NCBI GenBank assembly: GCA_021404525.1
Contig: JAAWWE010000003.1
Location: 248,001-312,000 of the forward strand
Reading direction: 5' to 3'
From: Rhodobiaceae bacterium
GTDB lineage: Bacteria; Pseudomonadota; Alphaproteobacteria; Parvibaculales; Parvibaculaceae
Length of the DNA: 64,000 nucleotides
Shown: positions 2,395 through 42,857 of the stretch, in pieces
Layout of the letters: each line of letters starts with the position of its first letter
How positions within the stretch are numbered: the first letter of the stretch is position 1
Made by a program: the position numbers and the translations under genes
The notes under the pieces: generated by a model
What the model was told of the DNA's origin: nothing
The model's database searches: none
Seen by the model: only the letters and a program-made list of their open reading frames with translations

Positions 2395-3243
2395 TTATTC
2401 TTTGTTTTCCTCGTCGCCTTCAACCTTCAGGTCTTTCAGCTTTGCAAAAACAGAATCGACGTCTGGTGCCGCTTCTTCTTCCTTCGGTGCCGGTGCCGTT
2501 GTGAAAGCGTCGGAGACGTCGCTGACGGCAAATGGGGCGGGCTCTGATGGATCGGCGTCATCTACAGATGGCACGTTCAGCTGATCGGCTGGTACTTCGT
2601 GGGCCGCAGGGCGTGCCAGACCGAGCGGGTCAGCTGTTGCTTCGCCTGTTGTTTCCTCTGCGGGCAGAAGCGTGCCAGCTTTGCGCGCTGCTTTTTCAGC
2701 TTTCTTACGTGCACGCTCCAGCTTGTCAGCTGCTTTCTGCACAGCGGCGTCGAGATCCATCTGGCTGCAGAGGCCAAGTGTTACCGGATCGACGGGCTTG
2801 ATGTTCGCTGAGTTCCAGTGGGACCGGTCCCGGATGGACTGGATGGTTGGCTTGGTCGTGCCAACGAGGCGACCAACCTGGGCGTCGGCAAGTTCAGGAT
2901 GGTTCCGCAAAAGCCAGGCAATGGCATCCGGGCGATCCTGCCGGCGCGACACAGGCGTGTAGCGCGGGCCCTTCTGAGGTTTTGGTGCGGGCACTTCATG
3001 TTTGCGCTCCGCAGATTTTAGCCGCTCATTTGGGTCTTCCTGGCAGCGTTCAATTTCTGCGCGGGTCAGTTCACCAGACGCCACGGGGTCCATGCCCTTA
3101 ATGCCCTGGGCGACGTCACCATCGGCGATGCCTTTCACTTCCAACGGGTGCAAACCACAATAGTCTGCAACCTGATCGAAGGTGAGGGATGTATTATCTA
3201 CGAGCCAGACGGCGGCGGCCTTTGGCATGAGCGGCTTAGACAT
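2395..3243 (-). CDS. trcR: Cell-cycle transcriptional regulator TrcR (DUF1013 family)
   Basis: A 282-residue protein of the DUF1013 family, found essentially throughout alphaproteobacteria. TrcR members are described as DNA-binding regulators associated with promoters of housekeeping and cell-cycle genes. The N-terminal part (MSKPLMPKAAAVWLVDNTSLTF) and the block ending in AWLLRNHPELADAQVGRLVG with an HTH-like TKPTIQSIRDR are family hallmarks. They are followed by a basic coiled segment and a long acidic tail rich in Pro, Glu and Asp. The open frame extends 47 codons further upstream, but the ATG at 3241-3243 has AGGAGA at good spacing and matches the family start. It is the downstream neighbour of a quinone oxidoreductase on the same strand, separated by about 140 bases. 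Confidence 0.85.
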   Translation of the reverse strand: MSKPLMPKAAAVWLVDNTSLTFDQVADYCGLHPLEVKGIADGDVAQGIKGMDPVASGELTRAEIERCQEDPNERLKSAERKHEVPAPKPQKGPRYTPVSRRQDRPDAIAWLLRNHPELADAQVGRLVGTTKPTIQSIRDRSHWNSANIKPVDPVTLGLCSQMDLDAAVQKAADKLERARKKAEKAARKAGTLLPAEETTGEATADPLGLARPAAHEVPADQLNVPSVDDADPSEPAPFAVSDVSDAFTTAPAPKEEEAAPDVDSVFAKLKDLKVEGDEENKE

Positions 3244-3384
3244 ATCTTCTCCTTTGCCTCCAGGGCCATCTGGGGAGCCTTCCCCCGAGATCGGCGCCTG
3301 AGATCGGCGTATGCCACTGAAAATGAACGGATTACCGGTCTTATAGGCCTTTCCGTGCGTTCTGGGAAGACCTCTCGCCCTCAT

Positions 3385-4386
3385 TTAGACGGTCAGGATG
3401 ATTTTTCCGATATGTCCGCCTTTTTCCATGCGTTCATGGGCTGCTTTTGCATCTCTGAGCGGGAAAGTGCTGTCCACGATGGGTTTCAGGCGGCCCGCAG
3501 CGATCCAGGGCCAGACTTCCTTCTGGACTGTTTCTGTGAGGGCGGTTTTCTCTTCCAGGGGCCGCGCGCGCAGGGTGGAGCCGGTGAGGGTTACCTGTTT
3601 TAGCATCAGGGGCAGGAAGTTTACTTCTGCCACCGAGCCTTGCTGATAGGCAATGTTGACGATGCGGCCGCCGCGCGCCGCACAGGTAATGTTGCGCTGG
3701 ATATAGTCACCACCCACCATGTCAAAGATCACATCGGCGCCCTGGCCGCTGGTTGCTTCATCCATCACCATGACAAAATCTTCTGCACGATAGTTGATGC
3801 CTCGCCTCGCTCCCAGTTCCTCGCATTTGCGGGCTTTTTCCTCAGACCCAGCGGTCGCAAAAACTTTCGCGCCCCAGGCGACAGCCATTTGAATAGCGGT
3901 GGTGCCAATGCCGCTGGTGCCCCCATGGATCAGAAGTGTTTCGCCGGGCTGCAATCGCCCACGGTCAAACACATTGGTCCAGACGGTCATGATGGTTTCC
4001 GGCAGAGCGGCTGCTTCCACCATGGAATAGCCATCTGGAATAGGCAGGGCATGGGTTTCGTGAACCACGGCATATTCGGCATAGCCGCCACCTGCCACAA
4101 GCGCGCAGACCTTGTCGCCAACCGACCAGTGGGATGCGCCGGTCCCGAGCGCCACGACTTCTCCCGCAAACTCCAGGCCTGGCGTGTCTGTCACGCCTTT
4201 GGGGGCGGGATAGAGTCCGATGCGTTGCACCAAGTCTCCGCGGTTCACGCCAGCGGCAGCAACCCGTACCAGGACCTCACCGTGGCCAGGTTGTGGAACA
4301 GGCACTTCAGTCGGTGTGAGGACTTCCGGCCCGCCGGGCTCAGGGATTTTGATCGCGGTCATGTTGGTCAGCAGATTTGAGGACAT
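3385..4386 (-). CDS. NAD(P)H-quinone oxidoreductase, PIG3/zeta-crystallin type
   Basis: A 333-residue zinc-free medium-chain dehydrogenase/reductase. The GroES-like N-terminal half (GHGEVLVRVAAAGVNRGDLVQR) is followed by a Rossmann domain with ETLLIHGGTSGIGTTAIQ around residue 150, where NADPH binds. No catalytic or structural zinc cysteines are present, as expected for the quinone reductase/PIG3 branch, which reduces quinones and alkenals. The start is uncertain: the ATG at 4386 lacks a clear ribosome site, and MTAIKIPEPG eight codons downstream (start 4362) resembles family N-termini. It is divergent from DUF1192. Confidence 0.85.
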   Translation of the reverse strand: MSSNLLTNMTAIKIPEPGGPEVLTPTEVPVPQPGHGEVLVRVAAAGVNRGDLVQRIGLYPAPKGVTDTPGLEFAGEVVALGTGASHWSVGDKVCALVAGGGYAEYAVVHETHALPIPDGYSMVEAAALPETIMTVWTNVFDRGRLQPGETLLIHGGTSGIGTTAIQMAVAWGAKVFATAGSEEKARKCEELGARRGINYRAEDFVMVMDEATSGQGADVIFDMVGGDYIQRNITCAARGGRIVNIAYQQGSVAEVNFLPLMLKQVTLTGSTLRARPLEEKTALTETVQKEVWPWIAAGRLKPIVDSTFPLRDAKAAHERMEKGGHIGKIILTV

Positions 4387-37778: not shown

Positions 37779-39686
37779 TTGTCCAATTTTAAAAATTTCG
37801 CTCTGTGGGCTGTTGTCGCGCTCTTGCTTGTGGCGCTGTTCAACCTGTTCCAGAGCCCGGTCGAACGGACCACCACCAATGAGATCAGCTTTTCTCAACT
37901 TCTGAACGAAGTTGATAAGGGCAATGTGGTTGATGTGACCATGTCTGGCAGCACGATCTCAGGGCACTATTCCGACGGTCAGAGTTTCTACACATACAAT
38001 CCTGGTGATCCGAACCTGGTTGAGCGCCTGAATGCGCGGAATGTGGAAATCACGGCGAAGCCGGCAGATGATGGCTCTCCGTCGCTGCTCGGTATCCTTG
38101 TCTCCTGGTTCCCCATGCTGCTTCTGATCGGGGTCTGGATTTTCTTCATGCGCCAGATGCAGGGCGGTGGCGGCAAGGCCATGGGCTTTGGCAAATCGAA
38201 AGCGAAGCTGCTCACAGAACGCCATGGTCGTGTGACCTTTGACGATGTGGCCGGCATTGATGAAGCGAAAGATGATCTGGAAGAGATTGTCGACTTCCTG
38301 CGGGACCCTTCGAAATTCCAGCGTCTCGGCGGTCACATTCCAAAGGGTGTGCTGCTTGTGGGCCCTCCGGGCACTGGTAAGACGCTGCTTGCGCGCGCTA
38401 TTGCAGGCGAAGCCAATGTGCCGTTCTTCACCATTTCCGGGTCTGACTTTGTGGAGATGTTTGTGGGTGTCGGTGCGAGCCGTGTCCGTGACATGTTCGA
38501 ACAGGCCAAGAAAAACTCACCCTGCATCATCTTCATTGACGAGATTGATGCGGTTGGTCGGCATCGTGGTGCCGGTCTTGGCGGCGGCAATGATGAGCGC
38601 GAACAGACTCTCAATCAGTTGCTGGTTGAGATGGATGGCTTTGAGCCCAATGAGAGCATCATTCTGATTGCAGCGACCAACCGTCCGGACGTTCTGGACC
38701 CGGCTCTGCTGCGTCCTGGTCGTTTCGACCGTCAGGTTGTGGTGCCGAACCCGGACATTATTGGCCGCGAAAAAATCCTCAAAGTGCACATGAAGAAAGT
38801 GCCTGTAGGACCAAACGTAGAAGTGAAGACCCTTGCCCGCGGCACCCCGGGCTTCTCCGGGGCTGATCTGGCGAACCTTGTGAATGAGGCAGCCCTTCTT
38901 GCGGCCCGTCGCGGACGCCGGTTGGTCACCATGTCTGAATTTGAGGACGCGAAAGACAAGGTGATGATGGGCGCGGAACGCCGCTCCATGGTTCAATCGG
39001 AAGAAGAACGCAGCCTTACTGCTTATCACGAAGGTGGCCACGCGCTGGTGGCGCTTCATATGCCCGCCTCAGACCCGATTCATAAGGCAACGATTATTCC
39101 CCGTGGCCGGGCACTCGGCATGGTGATGCGCCTGCCGGAAGCGGATCAGTTCTCTGTCACGCGCGAGAAGATGTATGCAGACTTGGCGGTCGCCATGGGT
39201 GGCCGTGTGGCAGAAGAAATCATTCTTGGCCATGACAAGGTGACCTCTGGGGCATCGTCCGATATTTCGCAGGCGACCAAGATGGCGAAAGCCATGGTCA
39301 CGCAGTGGGGTATGAGCGACAAGCTTGGACCGCTGGCTTATGAAGACAATGAAGAAGAAGTCTTCCTTGGTCACTCAGTGGCGCGCTCGCAGAATATGTC
39401 TGAAGAGACACAGCGGATGATCGACCAGGAAGTGAAGCGCATCGTGGATGATGGCTACAAGAAAGCCCACGAGGTGCTTACGACCAATATTGATGATCTT
39501 CACACGATCGCCAAAGGGTTGCTTGAGTTCGAAACCCTTTCAGGCGATGAAATCAAAGGTCTTCTGGTTGGTGAGAAGCCGCATCGCGATAGCGGTGAGC
39601 CGCCGGAGCCTACGGGTGGTCCGACCGCTTCCGTGCCGACAAGTGGCGGCGTGGGCCGGATTGATCCCGAGCCTCAGGGTACGTGA
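37779..39686 (+). CDS. ftsH: ATP-dependent zinc metalloprotease FtsH (TTG start)
   Basis: A 635-residue membrane-bound AAA+ protease. Two membrane helices (about 6-25 and 104-126) flank a small periplasmic domain. Walker A GPPGTGKT is near residue 194, and Walker B with [16 protein letters not shown] follows. The zinc site is HEGGH near 421, where most homologues have HEAGH. A C-terminal coiled region and Gly/Pro tail end the protein. The start is TTG at 37779-37781: it has CAGGAAAAG upstream and reproduces the family N-terminus [21 protein letters not shown], and no ATG fits. Substrates include LpxC and RpoH in E. coli; rpoH lies at 62039. Confidence 0.96.
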
Positions 39687-39710: not shown

Positions 39711-39742
39711 TAAAGCCCTGCTCGTTTGAGTGGGGCTTTTTT
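39711..39742 (+). terminator. Intrinsic terminator after ftsH
   Basis: AAAGCCC (39712-39718) pairs with GGGCTTT (39733-39739), with an inner CTC/GAG pair, and a T-run follows to 39742. folP begins only 30 bases further. Confidence 0.8.
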
Positions 39743-39771: not shown

Positions 39772-40578
39772 ATGAAATCAACACCCAGCATATTCGGTAT
39801 TCTCAACATCACCTCGGACTCGTTTTCCGATGGGGGGAAGTATCTTGATCCCGCCGCGGCACTCGCTCACGGGCGGCAGCTGATGGCGGATGGGGCGCAT
39901 GTGCTTGATATCGGGCCCGCATCGTCCCATCCAGACAGCGCGCCGGTGAGTGCAGAAGAAGAGATTAAACGTCTCTCAGCAGTGGTGCCTGTCCTTCAGG
40001 AGGAAGGGGCCCTGGTTTCTGTCGATACATTTCAGACGGAAACACAGCGGTGGGCGCTGACGCAGAATGTGGCGTATCTCAATGACATTCAGGGGTTTGC
40101 CGATGAGAGTTTCTATCCGGAGCTTGCGGAGGCTTCTGCCAAGCTTGTGGTGATGCATTCCATTCAGGGGCGCGGTCCCGCGACGCGGGCAGCGCCGCCT
40201 GCGGGGTCTATGGTGGATCATGTTTCCCGGTTTTTCGAAGAACGTTTCGGCGCTCTGGAAAAGGCGGGGGTCACCCGGGAACGCCTGGTTTTGGACCCTG
40301 GCATGGGCTTTTTCCTCGGCAATCAACCGGAGCCGTCGCTGGAAGTGATCCGGGGGGTGGGCACGCTCAAAGAGCGGTTCGACGTGCCCCTTCTCATTTC
40401 GGTGTCGCGAAAAAGCTTCCTCCGGAAACTCGCGGGGACCGAGGTTGGCAGTTCAGCGGCGGCAACCCTAGCTGCCGAGCTTTTTACAGCGACTGCCGGG
40501 GTGGACATGATCCGGACCCATGAACCTCGGCAATTGGCGGATTCGCTGGCGATCTGGGGTCACCTGTCGGCCTATTAA
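39772..40578 (+). CDS. folP: Dihydropteroate synthase of the Sul-like lineage
   Basis: A 268-residue TIM-barrel enzyme that condenses para-aminobenzoate with hydroxymethyl-dihydropterin diphosphate. It reads closer to the sulfonamide-resistance enzymes Sul1/Sul2 than to E. coli FolP. Shared blocks are FGILNITSDSF (8-18), DIGPASSHPDSAPVS (46-60), VDTFQTETQRWAL (84-96), YLNDIQGFADE (102-112), VVMHS (126-130), DPGMGFFLG (175-183) and VSVSRKSFL-like ISVSRKSFL (209-217). E. coli has DPGFGFGK at the 175 block. It sits between ftsH and glmM, the usual chromosomal folP location, so it is probably the resident enzyme and not an acquired one. Reduced sulfonamide binding is an inference. Confidence 0.9.
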   Translation: MKSTPSIFGILNITSDSFSDGGKYLDPAAALAHGRQLMADGAHVLDIGPASSHPDSAPVSAEEEIKRLSAVVPVLQEEGALVSVDTFQTETQRWALTQNVAYLNDIQGFADESFYPELAEASAKLVVMHSIQGRGPATRAAPPAGSMVDHVSRFFEERFGALEKAGVTRERLVLDPGMGFFLGNQPEPSLEVIRGVGTLKERFDVPLLISVSRKSFLRKLAGTEVGSSAAATLAAELFTATAGVDMIRTHEPRQLADSLAIWGHLSAY

Positions 40579-40677: not shown

Positions 40678-42024
40678 ATGTCACGCAAATATTTTGGCAC
40701 GGACGGTATTCGAGGCACGGCGAACCAACCCAATATGACGGCGGAAATGGCCCTGCGTGTGGGTATGGCCGCCGGGCGCGTTTTTACACGCGGTGATCAT
40801 CGCCATAGGGTGGTGATTGGGAAGGATACGCGCCTCTCTGGCTACATGATTGAAAATGCCCTGGTTGCTGGCTTTACGTCCGTGGGGATGGATGTCTTCC
40901 AATTCGGTCCCCTGCCAACTCCAGCTGTTGCGATGCTGACACGTTCCATGCGCGCTGACCTTGGGGTCATGATTTCTGCCTCTCACAATTCCTATGAAGA
41001 TAATGGCATCAAGCTGTTTGGTCCGGACGGGTACAAGCTCTCTGACCTTGTGGAGCATGAGATCGAGCGGCGGATGGACAATGGGATTATGGACCATCTG
41101 GCGGCGCCTGAGGCTATTGGCCGGGCCAAACGTATTGAAGATGCGCAGGCCCGGTACATTGAGTTCGCAAAGCGTACTTTTCCAAAACATCTAAGTCTGG
41201 AAGGGCTGCGCGTGGTGGTCGATTGTGCCAACGGTGCGGCTTATAAGGTCGCGCCGACGGCGCTGTGGGAGCTTGGCGCGGAAGTCGTCACCGTCGGTGT
41301 TGACCCTGATGGCACGAACATTAATTCCGGATGTGGGTCCACGGCCCCGGAGCGCATGTGTGAGCTGGTGCGGGAACGGCGCGCTGACATCGGTCTGGCT
41401 CTCGACGGAGATGCGGACCGCGTCATTATCTGTGATGAAAAGGGCGAGATTGTTGATGGAGACCAGATTATGGGTCTCGTGGCGCAGTCGTGGAAAGAGT
41501 CTGAAATGCTTGCAGGGCCTGGCATTGTTTCGACGGTGATGTCGAACCTCGGCCTTGAACGTTATCTTCAGGGCATTGGCCTGGAGCTTGCGCGCACGCA
41601 GGTCGGCGACCGCTATGTGGTAGAGCATATGCGGAGCCACGGCTTCAATGTGGGTGGTGAGCAGTCAGGCCATATCGTGTTGTCTGACTTCGCGACGACG
41701 GGTGACGGATTGATTGCAGGCCTCCAGGTGCTGGCCGTGTTGCAATCTACCAACAAGCCTGTGAGTGAAGCCTGCAATCTGTTTGAACCAGTGCCGCAGC
41801 TCTTGAAGAACGTGCGCTTTAAGTCTGGGGCGCCCCTTGAAAGTGCGACGGTCCAGGAAGCCATCAAAGAAGGCGAAGGGCGTCTGGGTGAGTGTGGACG
41901 TATTGTCGTGCGCAAATCGGGCACGGAACCCCTGATCCGCGTGATGGCGGAAGGGGATGATGAAAGCCTCGTCGAAAACGTTGTGGGCGATATTGCCTCT
42001 GCGATCGAGCATGCGGCTGCCTGA
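40678..42024 (+). CDS. glmM: Phosphoglucosamine mutase
   Basis: A 448-residue enzyme that interconverts glucosamine-6- and 1-phosphate on the way to UDP-GlcNAc, peptidoglycan and lipid A. The N-terminus [13 protein letters not shown] is typical. The phosphorylated serine is S102 in [16 protein letters not shown], where most members have HNPY/HNPF. The metal loop LDGDADRV and the sugar loop [10 protein letters not shown] are intact, and [12 protein letters not shown] ends the phosphate-binding domain. It follows folP by 99 bases. Confidence 0.96.
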
Positions 42025-42029
42025 ATTCC

Positions 42030-42857
42030 ATGAATGATAATGACACGTCTCCCGATCCAACCATGGGCCGGGTTCTGATTGTTGCCGGGTCCGACAGCGG
42101 TGGCGGTGCGGGCATTCAGGCAGACATTAAGACGGTCACCATGTTTGGCGCTTACGCAGCAACCGCTGTGAGCGCAATAACGGTTCAGAACACGCTCGGC
42201 GTATCTGATGTGCTTCCCCTTGATCCCGATATCATTGTTCGTCAGATGCAGGCCGTGCTTGATGACATTGGCGCTGATGTCGTGAAGACCGGCATGTTGC
42301 ACTCAACAGAGGTTATTGAGGCGGTGGCGCAGGAGTTTGACACCCGCTCTGACCTCAAGCTTGTTGTCGACCCGGTAATGGTGGCGACCAGCGGTGATCC
42401 GCTGTTACAGGATGATGCCATGATCGCGTTGCGTAACCTGCTGGTGCCCGCAGCGACGATCCTCACCCCCAATATGCCTGAAGCCGCCCGGTTGACTGGT
42501 CAGGCCGTTGAAACGCTGGATGATCAGAAGCGGGCTGGCGATGCCCTTATGGGGCTTGGGCCAGCTGCTGTTTTGGTCAAAGGCGGCCATGGGCAGGGCG
42601 CAGATGTGTGCGACGTTTTGGTGACCGAGGAAAGCATTGAAGTCATGACAAGCCCGCGCATCGACACGGTGCATACGCATGGCACCGGATGCACATTGGC
42701 CTCAGCGATTGCGGCGCTTCTCTCTCAGGGTGCACCGATGCGGGATGCTGTCTCGATCGCGCGGGACTATGTCCATGAGGCGATTGCGACCGCACCTGGG
42801 TTGGGAAAAGGTCACGGGCCTCTGAATCATATGCACCCTTTTCAGCAATCAGACTGA
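42030..42857 (+). CDS. thiD: Hydroxymethylpyrimidine/phosphomethylpyrimidine kinase
   Basis: A 275-residue ribokinase-fold kinase that makes HMP-pyrophosphate for thiamine synthesis. The N-terminal RVLIVAGSDSGGGAGIQADIKTV, the middle VVDPVMVATSGDPLL and LTPNMPEAARLTG, and the C-terminal anion hole HTHGTGCTLASAIAALLSQG are all present. It starts five bases after glmM and is likely in the same transcript. It converges on the MocR gene with no obvious terminator. Confidence 0.94.
   Translation: MNDNDTSPDPTMGRVLIVAGSDSGGGAGIQADIKTVTMFGAYAATAVSAITVQNTLGVSDVLPLDPDIIVRQMQAVLDDIGADVVKTGMLHSTEVIEAVAQEFDTRSDLKLVVDPVMVATSGDPLLQDDAMIALRNLLVPAATILTPNMPEAARLTGQAVETLDDQKRAGDALMGLGPAAVLVKGGHGQGADVCDVLVTEESIEVMTSPRIDTVHTHGTGCTLASAIAALLSQGAPMRDAVSIARDYVHEAIATAPGLGKGHGPLNHMHPFQQSD

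Follow-up and report, generated by a model that had tools for sequence, protein, structure and literature searches.

The folP gene at positions 39772..40578 on the plus strand of the window (the whole 64,000-nucleotide stretch of DNA analyzed here) very probably encodes the native and only dihydropteroate synthase (DHPS) of its host, a member of an old alphaproteobacterial Sul-type lineage with a pocket rebuilt around F180, predicted to be active and insensitive to sulfonamides, the latter trait being presumably incidental. The gene represents a further case, in another genus, of the published chromosomal Sul-motif FolP of Rhodobiaceae, a class that is itself already known, and the value of the locus lies in its relatives more than in the gene itself. 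In particular, the relatives include a chromosome closer to the probable source of sul2, one of the mobile sul genes that are common in clinical resistance, and natural Sul-type enzymes in which the resistance-conferring phenylalanine has been exchanged.

The folP gene and its chromosomal setting

The 268-residue translation of the open reading frame (ORF), which ends in a stop codon, contains all of the blocks that the first-pass annotation had singled out as resembling Sul1 and Sul2, namely, DIGPASSHPD, FQTETQRWAL, YLNDIQGF, DPGMGFFLG, and SVSRKSFL, and profile matches, PDB matches, and phylogeny concur in the assignment of the protein. The generic DHPS profile TIGR01496 (246.1 bits; cut-off, 162.6) and PF00809 (201.6 bits; cut-off, 25.5) both recognized it above their cut-offs. 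The NCBIfam models for Sul2 (337.3 bits; cut-off, 575), Sul3 (262.7 bits; cut-off, 475), and Sul1 (255.6 bits; cut-off, 600) scored above the generic DHPS profile, yet under their own cut-offs, so that the protein is Sul-like without being Sul1, Sul2, or Sul3. They were followed, below the generic profile, by the DHPS model PRK11613 (145.9 bits) and the Sul4 model; kinship with Sul4 was considered and rejected, the score of 100.8 bits (cut-off, 600) being lower than that of generic DHPS. Consistently, a sequence search against the PDB was topped by Sul2, Sul3, and Sul1 (318 to 249 bits), with the best ordinary DHPS at 148 bits. The first-pass annotation had also raised the question of a second folP. 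None was found when the whole genome (67 contigs, 4.16 Mb; completeness, 100; contamination, 5.39) was searched with PF00809, which matched two proteins, the other one being methionine synthase (TIGR02082, 1086.8 bits; cut-off, 1010.85), and the window gene is the sole folP found in its genome.

The gene lies in the local order ftsH-folP-glmM-thiD, all on the plus strand. Upstream is ftsH, encoding an ATP-dependent zinc metalloprotease (37779..39686; TIGR01241, 884.9 bits; cut-off, 600), and the region between ftsH and folP contains a terminator-like inverted repeat on the plus strand (AAAGCCC ... GGGCTTT followed by TTT; 39712..39742), which was read by eye and is absent from the terminator-scan list, and which suggests that folP may not be read together with ftsH. 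Directly downstream are an intact glmM for phosphoglucosamine mutase (40678..42024; TIGR01455, 627.6 bits; cut-off, 447.55), the homolog of the truncated glmM' that accompanies sul2 on plasmids, and a thiD-like gene for hydroxymethylpyrimidine kinase (42030..42857; TIGR00097, 301.9 bits; cut-off, 204.95). The other scanned neighbors encode TilS, TolB, an OmpA family protein, a TolA-binding/TPR protein, a GntR-aminotransferase, PhzF, EamA, and a class-V aminotransferase, all of them apart from TilS being counted as envelope, metabolic, transport, or regulatory functions. Profile scanning of the 11 neighboring ORFs identified no mobile-element proteins, in agreement with the native ftsH-folP-glmM context free of mobile elements that had been read from the sequence beforehand, and GC content over 36-44 kb of the window ranges from 0.53 to 0.63. 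The start of glmM follows folP in 36 of the 37 FolP loci of the order, the remaining one (L046) stopping at a contig edge. In the GlmM tree (from which L046, L130, L139, and L140 were omitted), the window groups with its genus mates, so that the neighbor gene bears no sign of recent arrival.

The DPGMGFFLG segment (residues 175-183; 40294..40320, plus strand) carries the two-residue Sul insertion, which aligns without gaps with Sul1-3, whereas ordinary FolP show a two-residue gap at this place. F180 (codon 40309-40311, plus strand) aligns with F178 of Sul1 and F179 of Sul2, and L182 aligns with L180 of Sul1; together with M178, L182 is the counterpart of the hydrophobic residues near the phenylalanine, so that the combination of Phe with Met and Leu is present. 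In the SRKS segment (residues 212-215; 40405..40416, plus strand), K214 and S215 correspond by alignment to Sul2 K213 and S214, which contact pABA, the serine through the pABA carboxylate (PMC10328974). Overall, the ligand residues N12, S17, F18, S52, K214, and S215 are kept, matching N12, S17, F18, S52, K213, and S214 of Sul2. According to the same structural study, a Phe-to-Gly replacement at the loop position compromises the protection that Sul1, Sul2, and Sul3 provide against 12 sulfonamides, as does deletion of the phenylalanine in Sul2 and Sul3, and E. coli DHPS becomes more resistant when given Phe-Gly at the equivalent place (PMC10328974). The Sul motif was present in all 37 FolP read in the window's order, whereas all 77 readable control FolP were of the plain DPG-x-GF-[GA]K type without the insertion, a difference exceeding chance and upholding the earlier contrast with E. 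coli-type FolP. These controls, which also served for GlmM, were the best 80 of 586 confirmed relatives, with none from the window's family, and three of the loci (L054, L081, and L096) gave no readable FolP motif.

The first-pass annotation had described a native Sul-like FolP expected to fall away from ordinary FolP in a phylogeny, and the trees bear this out, placing the window protein with Sul1-3 instead of inside ordinary FolP. In a 77-row tree (reduced from 114 rows by omitting, for speed, 37 of the 74 ordinary FolP), the 37 FolP of the order clustered with Sul1-3 in a single clade (SH-aLRT, 99) that excluded the 37 remaining ordinary FolP, and the Sul-type clade received an SH-aLRT of 100 in a 103-row tree that included 16 ordinary rows and omitted L152, L159, L180, and L184. 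The clade of Sul-type FolP and Sul1-3 was recovered with support of 100/100 in a careful search on 52 rows even after the loop columns had been removed; there, the window protein stood beside its own genus (100/99 with L004), whereas Sul1 and Sul3 were on long branches with unsure placement, neither grouping with the window. Loci without a usable ORF (L054, L069, L081, L096, L106, and L117) were omitted from the trees.

Collectively, these features are consistent with the following mechanism. As the only DHPS of the cell, the window FolP would join pABA to the pterin pyrophosphate, yielding dihydropteroate. Its lineage would be an old alphaproteobacterial form of DHPS in which two additional residues in the alpha6 segment (DPGMGFFLG) rebuilt the pABA pocket. 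F180 would occupy the place of the bulky part of the sulfonamide and narrow the pocket, so that pABA would still bind and the drug would be excluded, the resistance trait being presumably a side effect of an insertion that had an older role. By analogy with Sul1-3 and the relatives of the window enzyme, both its activity and its sulfonamide insensitivity are well-founded predictions, and residues outside the loop may alter sulfonamide binding.

Distribution of Sul-type FolP and variation at the loop phenylalanine

Within the window's order, FolP was found in 37 of the 40 genomes searched, including all 27 of good quality. A Sul1 query against 385 alphaproteobacterial genomes matched 283 at 1e-20, and the scores were bimodal, with 25 places scoring at least 235 bits, followed by a drop to 142; in these wide Sul1-query searches, at most six first-look candidates were scored per genome, so that single misses are possible. 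The insertion was present in all 25 high-scoring places, two of which lacked the phenylalanine. By family, the 25 comprised five genomes of f1 (the window's family), four each of f5 and f18, three each of f121 and f126, two each of f123 and f142, and one each of f54 and f39. At the level of orders, Sul-type matches were found in 37 of 40 genomes (order of f1), 89 of 96 (f5), 26 of 28 (f18; two partial or weak), 5 of 6 (f126), 4 of 4 (f121), 2 of 2 (f123), and 3 of 4 (f142 with f54). Thus, Sul-type FolP spans seven alphaproteobacterial orders and is patchy in an eighth group, f39, where it occurs in two of the nine FolP-bearing genomes (L150 of G376 and L270 of G900) and ordinary FolP in the other seven, a pattern that looks like folP replacement by transfer. 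At L150, glmM is located on the strand opposite to folP. Across 398 genomes of the phylum, four matched at 1e-45: the window, one ordinary FolP, and a sul1 (L244 of G583) and a sul2 (L245 of G777) that are true mobile-type genes with 100% identity.

The GlmM tree gathered all Sul-type genomes except G376 within a single section of the Alphaproteobacteria (support, 86), alongside six rows of the ordinary type (two Parvularculaceae, three Pelagibacterales, and one Hyphomicrobiaceae MAG), and the loop trait requires five changes on this tree. The spread and the GlmM tree speak for, without proving, ancient vertical inheritance punctuated by some losses or transfers. Such a broad spread does not fit the statement of a 2019 study that other chromosomal folP are without the motif (PMC6335563). 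Hundreds of DHPS-annotated sequences at NCBI have been reported to contain the Gly-Phe-Phe motif (PMC10328974), so that wide occurrence, if not a map of it, was already noted there.

The order of f5 is distinguished by variation at the phenylalanine position. The insertion was present in all 88 sequences that could be read from its 89 matched genomes (the sequence from G460 being partial), with phenylalanine in 56, methionine in 11, glutamine in 10, leucine in 8, tyrosine in 2, and alanine in 1; examples of natural forms devoid of the phenylalanine are found at L134, L137, L171, and L173. Outside f5, all Sul-type FolP that were read have the phenylalanine (f1, 37; f18, 26; f126, 5; f121, 4; f123, 2; f142, 2; f54, 1; f39, 2). 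By the simplest count, the residue at this position changed at least 12 times in the f5 order, on a quick tree built without these columns and containing many weak forks. The SRK segment was read in 84 rows from 87 of the 88 genomes, after G431, G433, and G511, with no readable SRK, had been dropped. All 10 glutamine forms and the single alanine form have SRKG, whereas the other 73 rows have SRKS, save for one phenylalanine form with glycine and one with alanine in place of the serine. On well-supported branches, the pairing of glutamine with glycine amounted to two independent pairs, and to three when every branch was counted, numbers insufficient for testing independence. On the basis of these two or three events, it can be hypothesized that glutamine takes over the pABA-carboxylate contact of the lost serine.

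The probable source of sul2 and alternative readings of the window gene

Chromosomal Sul-motif FolP has been reported in Rhodobiaceae and Leptospiraceae and proposed as the origin of mobile sul genes, in line with the first-pass annotation, along with the ftsH/TetR-folP-glmM context, the glmM fragment beside sul2, and a P. aeruginosa contig (LLMY01000073.1) with a further mobilized copy (PMC6335563). In the published view, the Sul-type form reached the Alphaproteobacteria from Leptospira. The best chromosome in the 2019 study was 63% identical to sul2 at the nucleotide level, and this low identity was taken as a sign of old mobilization (PMC6335563, Table 1); the 2023 structural study states that the direct ancestor was not identified (PMC10328974). 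Among open-licence PMC papers, none published since then was found to address the chromosomal origin of sul2.

The proposal that the window fits the donor lineage stands at the family level but not at that of the genus: FolP from the seven genomes of g1, the genus of the window, shows 57-61% amino acid identity to Sul2 (window, 58.1%), compared with up to 90% in genus g4, which is taken to be Parvibaculum. Within g4, the FolP of G031 is 90.4% identical to Sul2 in amino acid sequence and 82.7% in nucleotide sequence, followed by those of G030 (80.1% amino acid identity) and G035 (74.2%); identities to Sul2 are available for 30 of the 37 loci of the order, the other seven being covered by the module comparison and the trees. 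In the 52-row tree, Sul2 was the sister of G031 FolP (100/99), next to G030 (100/98).

When 72,556 plasmid records were queried with 1171 chromosomal bases from G031, 4370 records matched, and in 1457 the match extended over 80% or more of the query. Among the matches listed, 20 of 60 covered the module in full and in one piece at 84.5-84.9% identity, starting 11 bases (10 in one record) ahead of folP and extending over the first 242 bases of glmM. For instance, positions 7975-9129 of L037 (G031) align with positions 2501-3655 of plasmid L157 (CP035637.1) over 1155 bp without a gap, spacer included, at 84.9%; the identity is 83.2% over 792 positions in folP, 81.4% in the spacer (86 of 86 positions), and 91.7% over 242 positions in glmM, each without gaps. 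By comparison, in the other 35 genomes of the order with a readable spacer, the folP-glmM spacer is 65 to 253 bases long and 35-59% identical. Past the glmM remnant, L157 carries a transposase of the IS91 family. On another plasmid, L036, a sul2 copy beside the glmM remnant has a frame that looks broken, although the record annotates sul2.

The folP of G031 is located on a 78-kb contig, preceded by an ftsH-like ORF and followed by the gene for an intact 448-residue GlmM, which groups with that of G030 (99); the gene thus lacks the appearance of a plasmid-borne sul2 wrongly binned with chromosomal contigs. The identities between G031 and L157 at the three codon positions are 93.6, 97.0, and 59.1%, indicating that G031 is a sister and not the donor itself; third codon positions still leave a sizeable distance between the two. 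Judging from these comparisons, sul2 probably came from the Parvibaculum lineage, in the same family as the window. Hence, the 2019 inference of old mobilization from low identity rested partly on thin sampling: G031 narrows the gap to sul2 from 63% nucleotide identity to 83% (folP), 81% (spacer), and 92% (glmM remnant), and points to the genus in which to search. No closer source of sul1 was found with the Sul1 query in the 385 genomes of the class, the orders of G164, G043, G187, G159, G161, and G213, the family of G376, and the 398 genomes of the phylum; the best chromosomal matches to Sul1 in the searched genomes (G485 and G475) are at 56%. The window itself was rejected as a sul donor, given its 58% amino acid identity to Sul2, the module identity, and the tree.

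Several other readings of the window gene have to be weighed against native descent within a Sul-type lineage. Capture of a mobile sul gene by the chromosome could account for the strong similarity to Sul1-3, but is extremely unlikely for a gene that had no second folP beside it in the genome search, is flanked by intact glmM and ftsH with no mobile-element protein among the 11 scanned neighbors, shares the folP-glmM order with its genus mates, belongs to a Sul-type folP that is order-wide, and scores far under all Sul cut-offs; moreover, its product is 85-88% identical to those of four genus mates and 71-72% to those of two more, vs. 58% to Sul2. Nor is the window's genus, despite belonging to the same family as the likely sul2 source, at all likely to have donated one of the mobile sul genes. 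Besides the sister relationship of Sul2 and G031 (100/99) and the long branches of Sul1 and Sul3, which do not group with the window, its folP is 59.6% identical to the plasmid module at the nucleotide level, compared with 83.2% for G031, and its spacer 58.5% in the aligned part (65 positions, 55 gaps), compared with 81.4% without gaps; in the closeness of folP-glmM to the plasmid module, the window ranks 35th of 37. Two-residue loop insertions are reported to arise in laboratory E. coli and in Neisseria (PMC10328974), and an ordinary FolP could thus have acquired a Sul-like loop by convergence, independently of the Sul lineage, but the 100/100 clade obtained with the loop columns removed makes this highly improbable.

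A different question is whether the Sul-type pocket was selected to exclude a natural pABA analog, such that resistance would be the selected function. The phenylalanine is present in two of two Sul-type FolP of f39 and, apart from f39 and f5, in all 77 that were read, which would fit such selection; nevertheless, we consider it unlikely, because the phenylalanine was replaced in 32 of 88 genomes of the f5 order with the insertion retained, and because, according to PMC6335563, there are no known natural sulfonamides acting on DHPS. Instead, exchange of the phenylalanine while the insertion stays, and the loss of the serine in the glutamine forms, may point to a native pABA-binding role of the insertion. 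The joint reading toward which we lean is that Sul-type DHPS is ancient, mainly vertically inherited across at least seven orders of Alphaproteobacteria, and not special to Rhodobiaceae; that sul2 was derived as one 1.15-kb folP-glmM' block from an unsampled Parvibaculum species near G031; that in the f5 order the phenylalanine was exchanged several times (for M, Q, L, Y, and A), the glutamine exchange accompanying the change of SRKS to SRKG; and that the insertion would serve the native role, with resistance as a by-product. Compared with what PMC6335563 and PMC10328974 report, the chromosome closer to sul2 (G031), the spread across orders, and the non-fixed phenylalanine are new, and the natural enzymes lacking the phenylalanine make it directly assayable why a sulfonamide-proof enzyme predated sulfonamides.

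Comparison with known dihydropteroate synthases

E. coli-type FolP has the family and the reaction in common with the window FolP but is devoid of the insertion, with a loop of the DPG[FI]GFGK type, and the E. coli structure 1aj0 matches the window protein with a phmmer score of 131.8 bits. Mobile Sul1 and Sul3 have the same loop as the window FolP, at 48.5 and 48.7% identity, respectively, and lie near it in none of the trees. Mobile Sul2 (PDB 7s2j and 7s2k), 58.1% identical in amino acid sequence, shares the loop and the pABA and pterin residues; unlike Sul2, the window gene is chromosomal, reaches 337.3 bits against the Sul2 cut-off of 575, and adjoins no mobile-element genes among the 11 neighbors scanned.

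Among the closest known systems is FolP* of Rhodobiaceae, for example that of Parvibaculum lavamentivorans DS-1, which likewise has the insertion, is encoded by a single chromosomal folP with glmM downstream, and groups with Sul1-3 (PMC6335563). The upstream neighbor of Rhodobiaceae FolP* is described as FtsH or TetR (PMC6335563), and that in the window is FtsH. When expressed in E. coli, P. lavamentivorans folP raised the sulfamethoxazole MIC from 8 to over 512 mg/L, whereas R. sphaeroides folP left it at 8 (PMC6335563, Table 2); sul2 also conferred an MIC of over 512 mg/L, vs. 8 for the host (PMC6335563). The window gene belongs to another genus, its product sharing only 54.9% identity with L029 FolP, presumed to be that of the tested P. 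lavamentivorans, and the resistance that was measured for the P. lavamentivorans enzyme is a prediction for that of the window.
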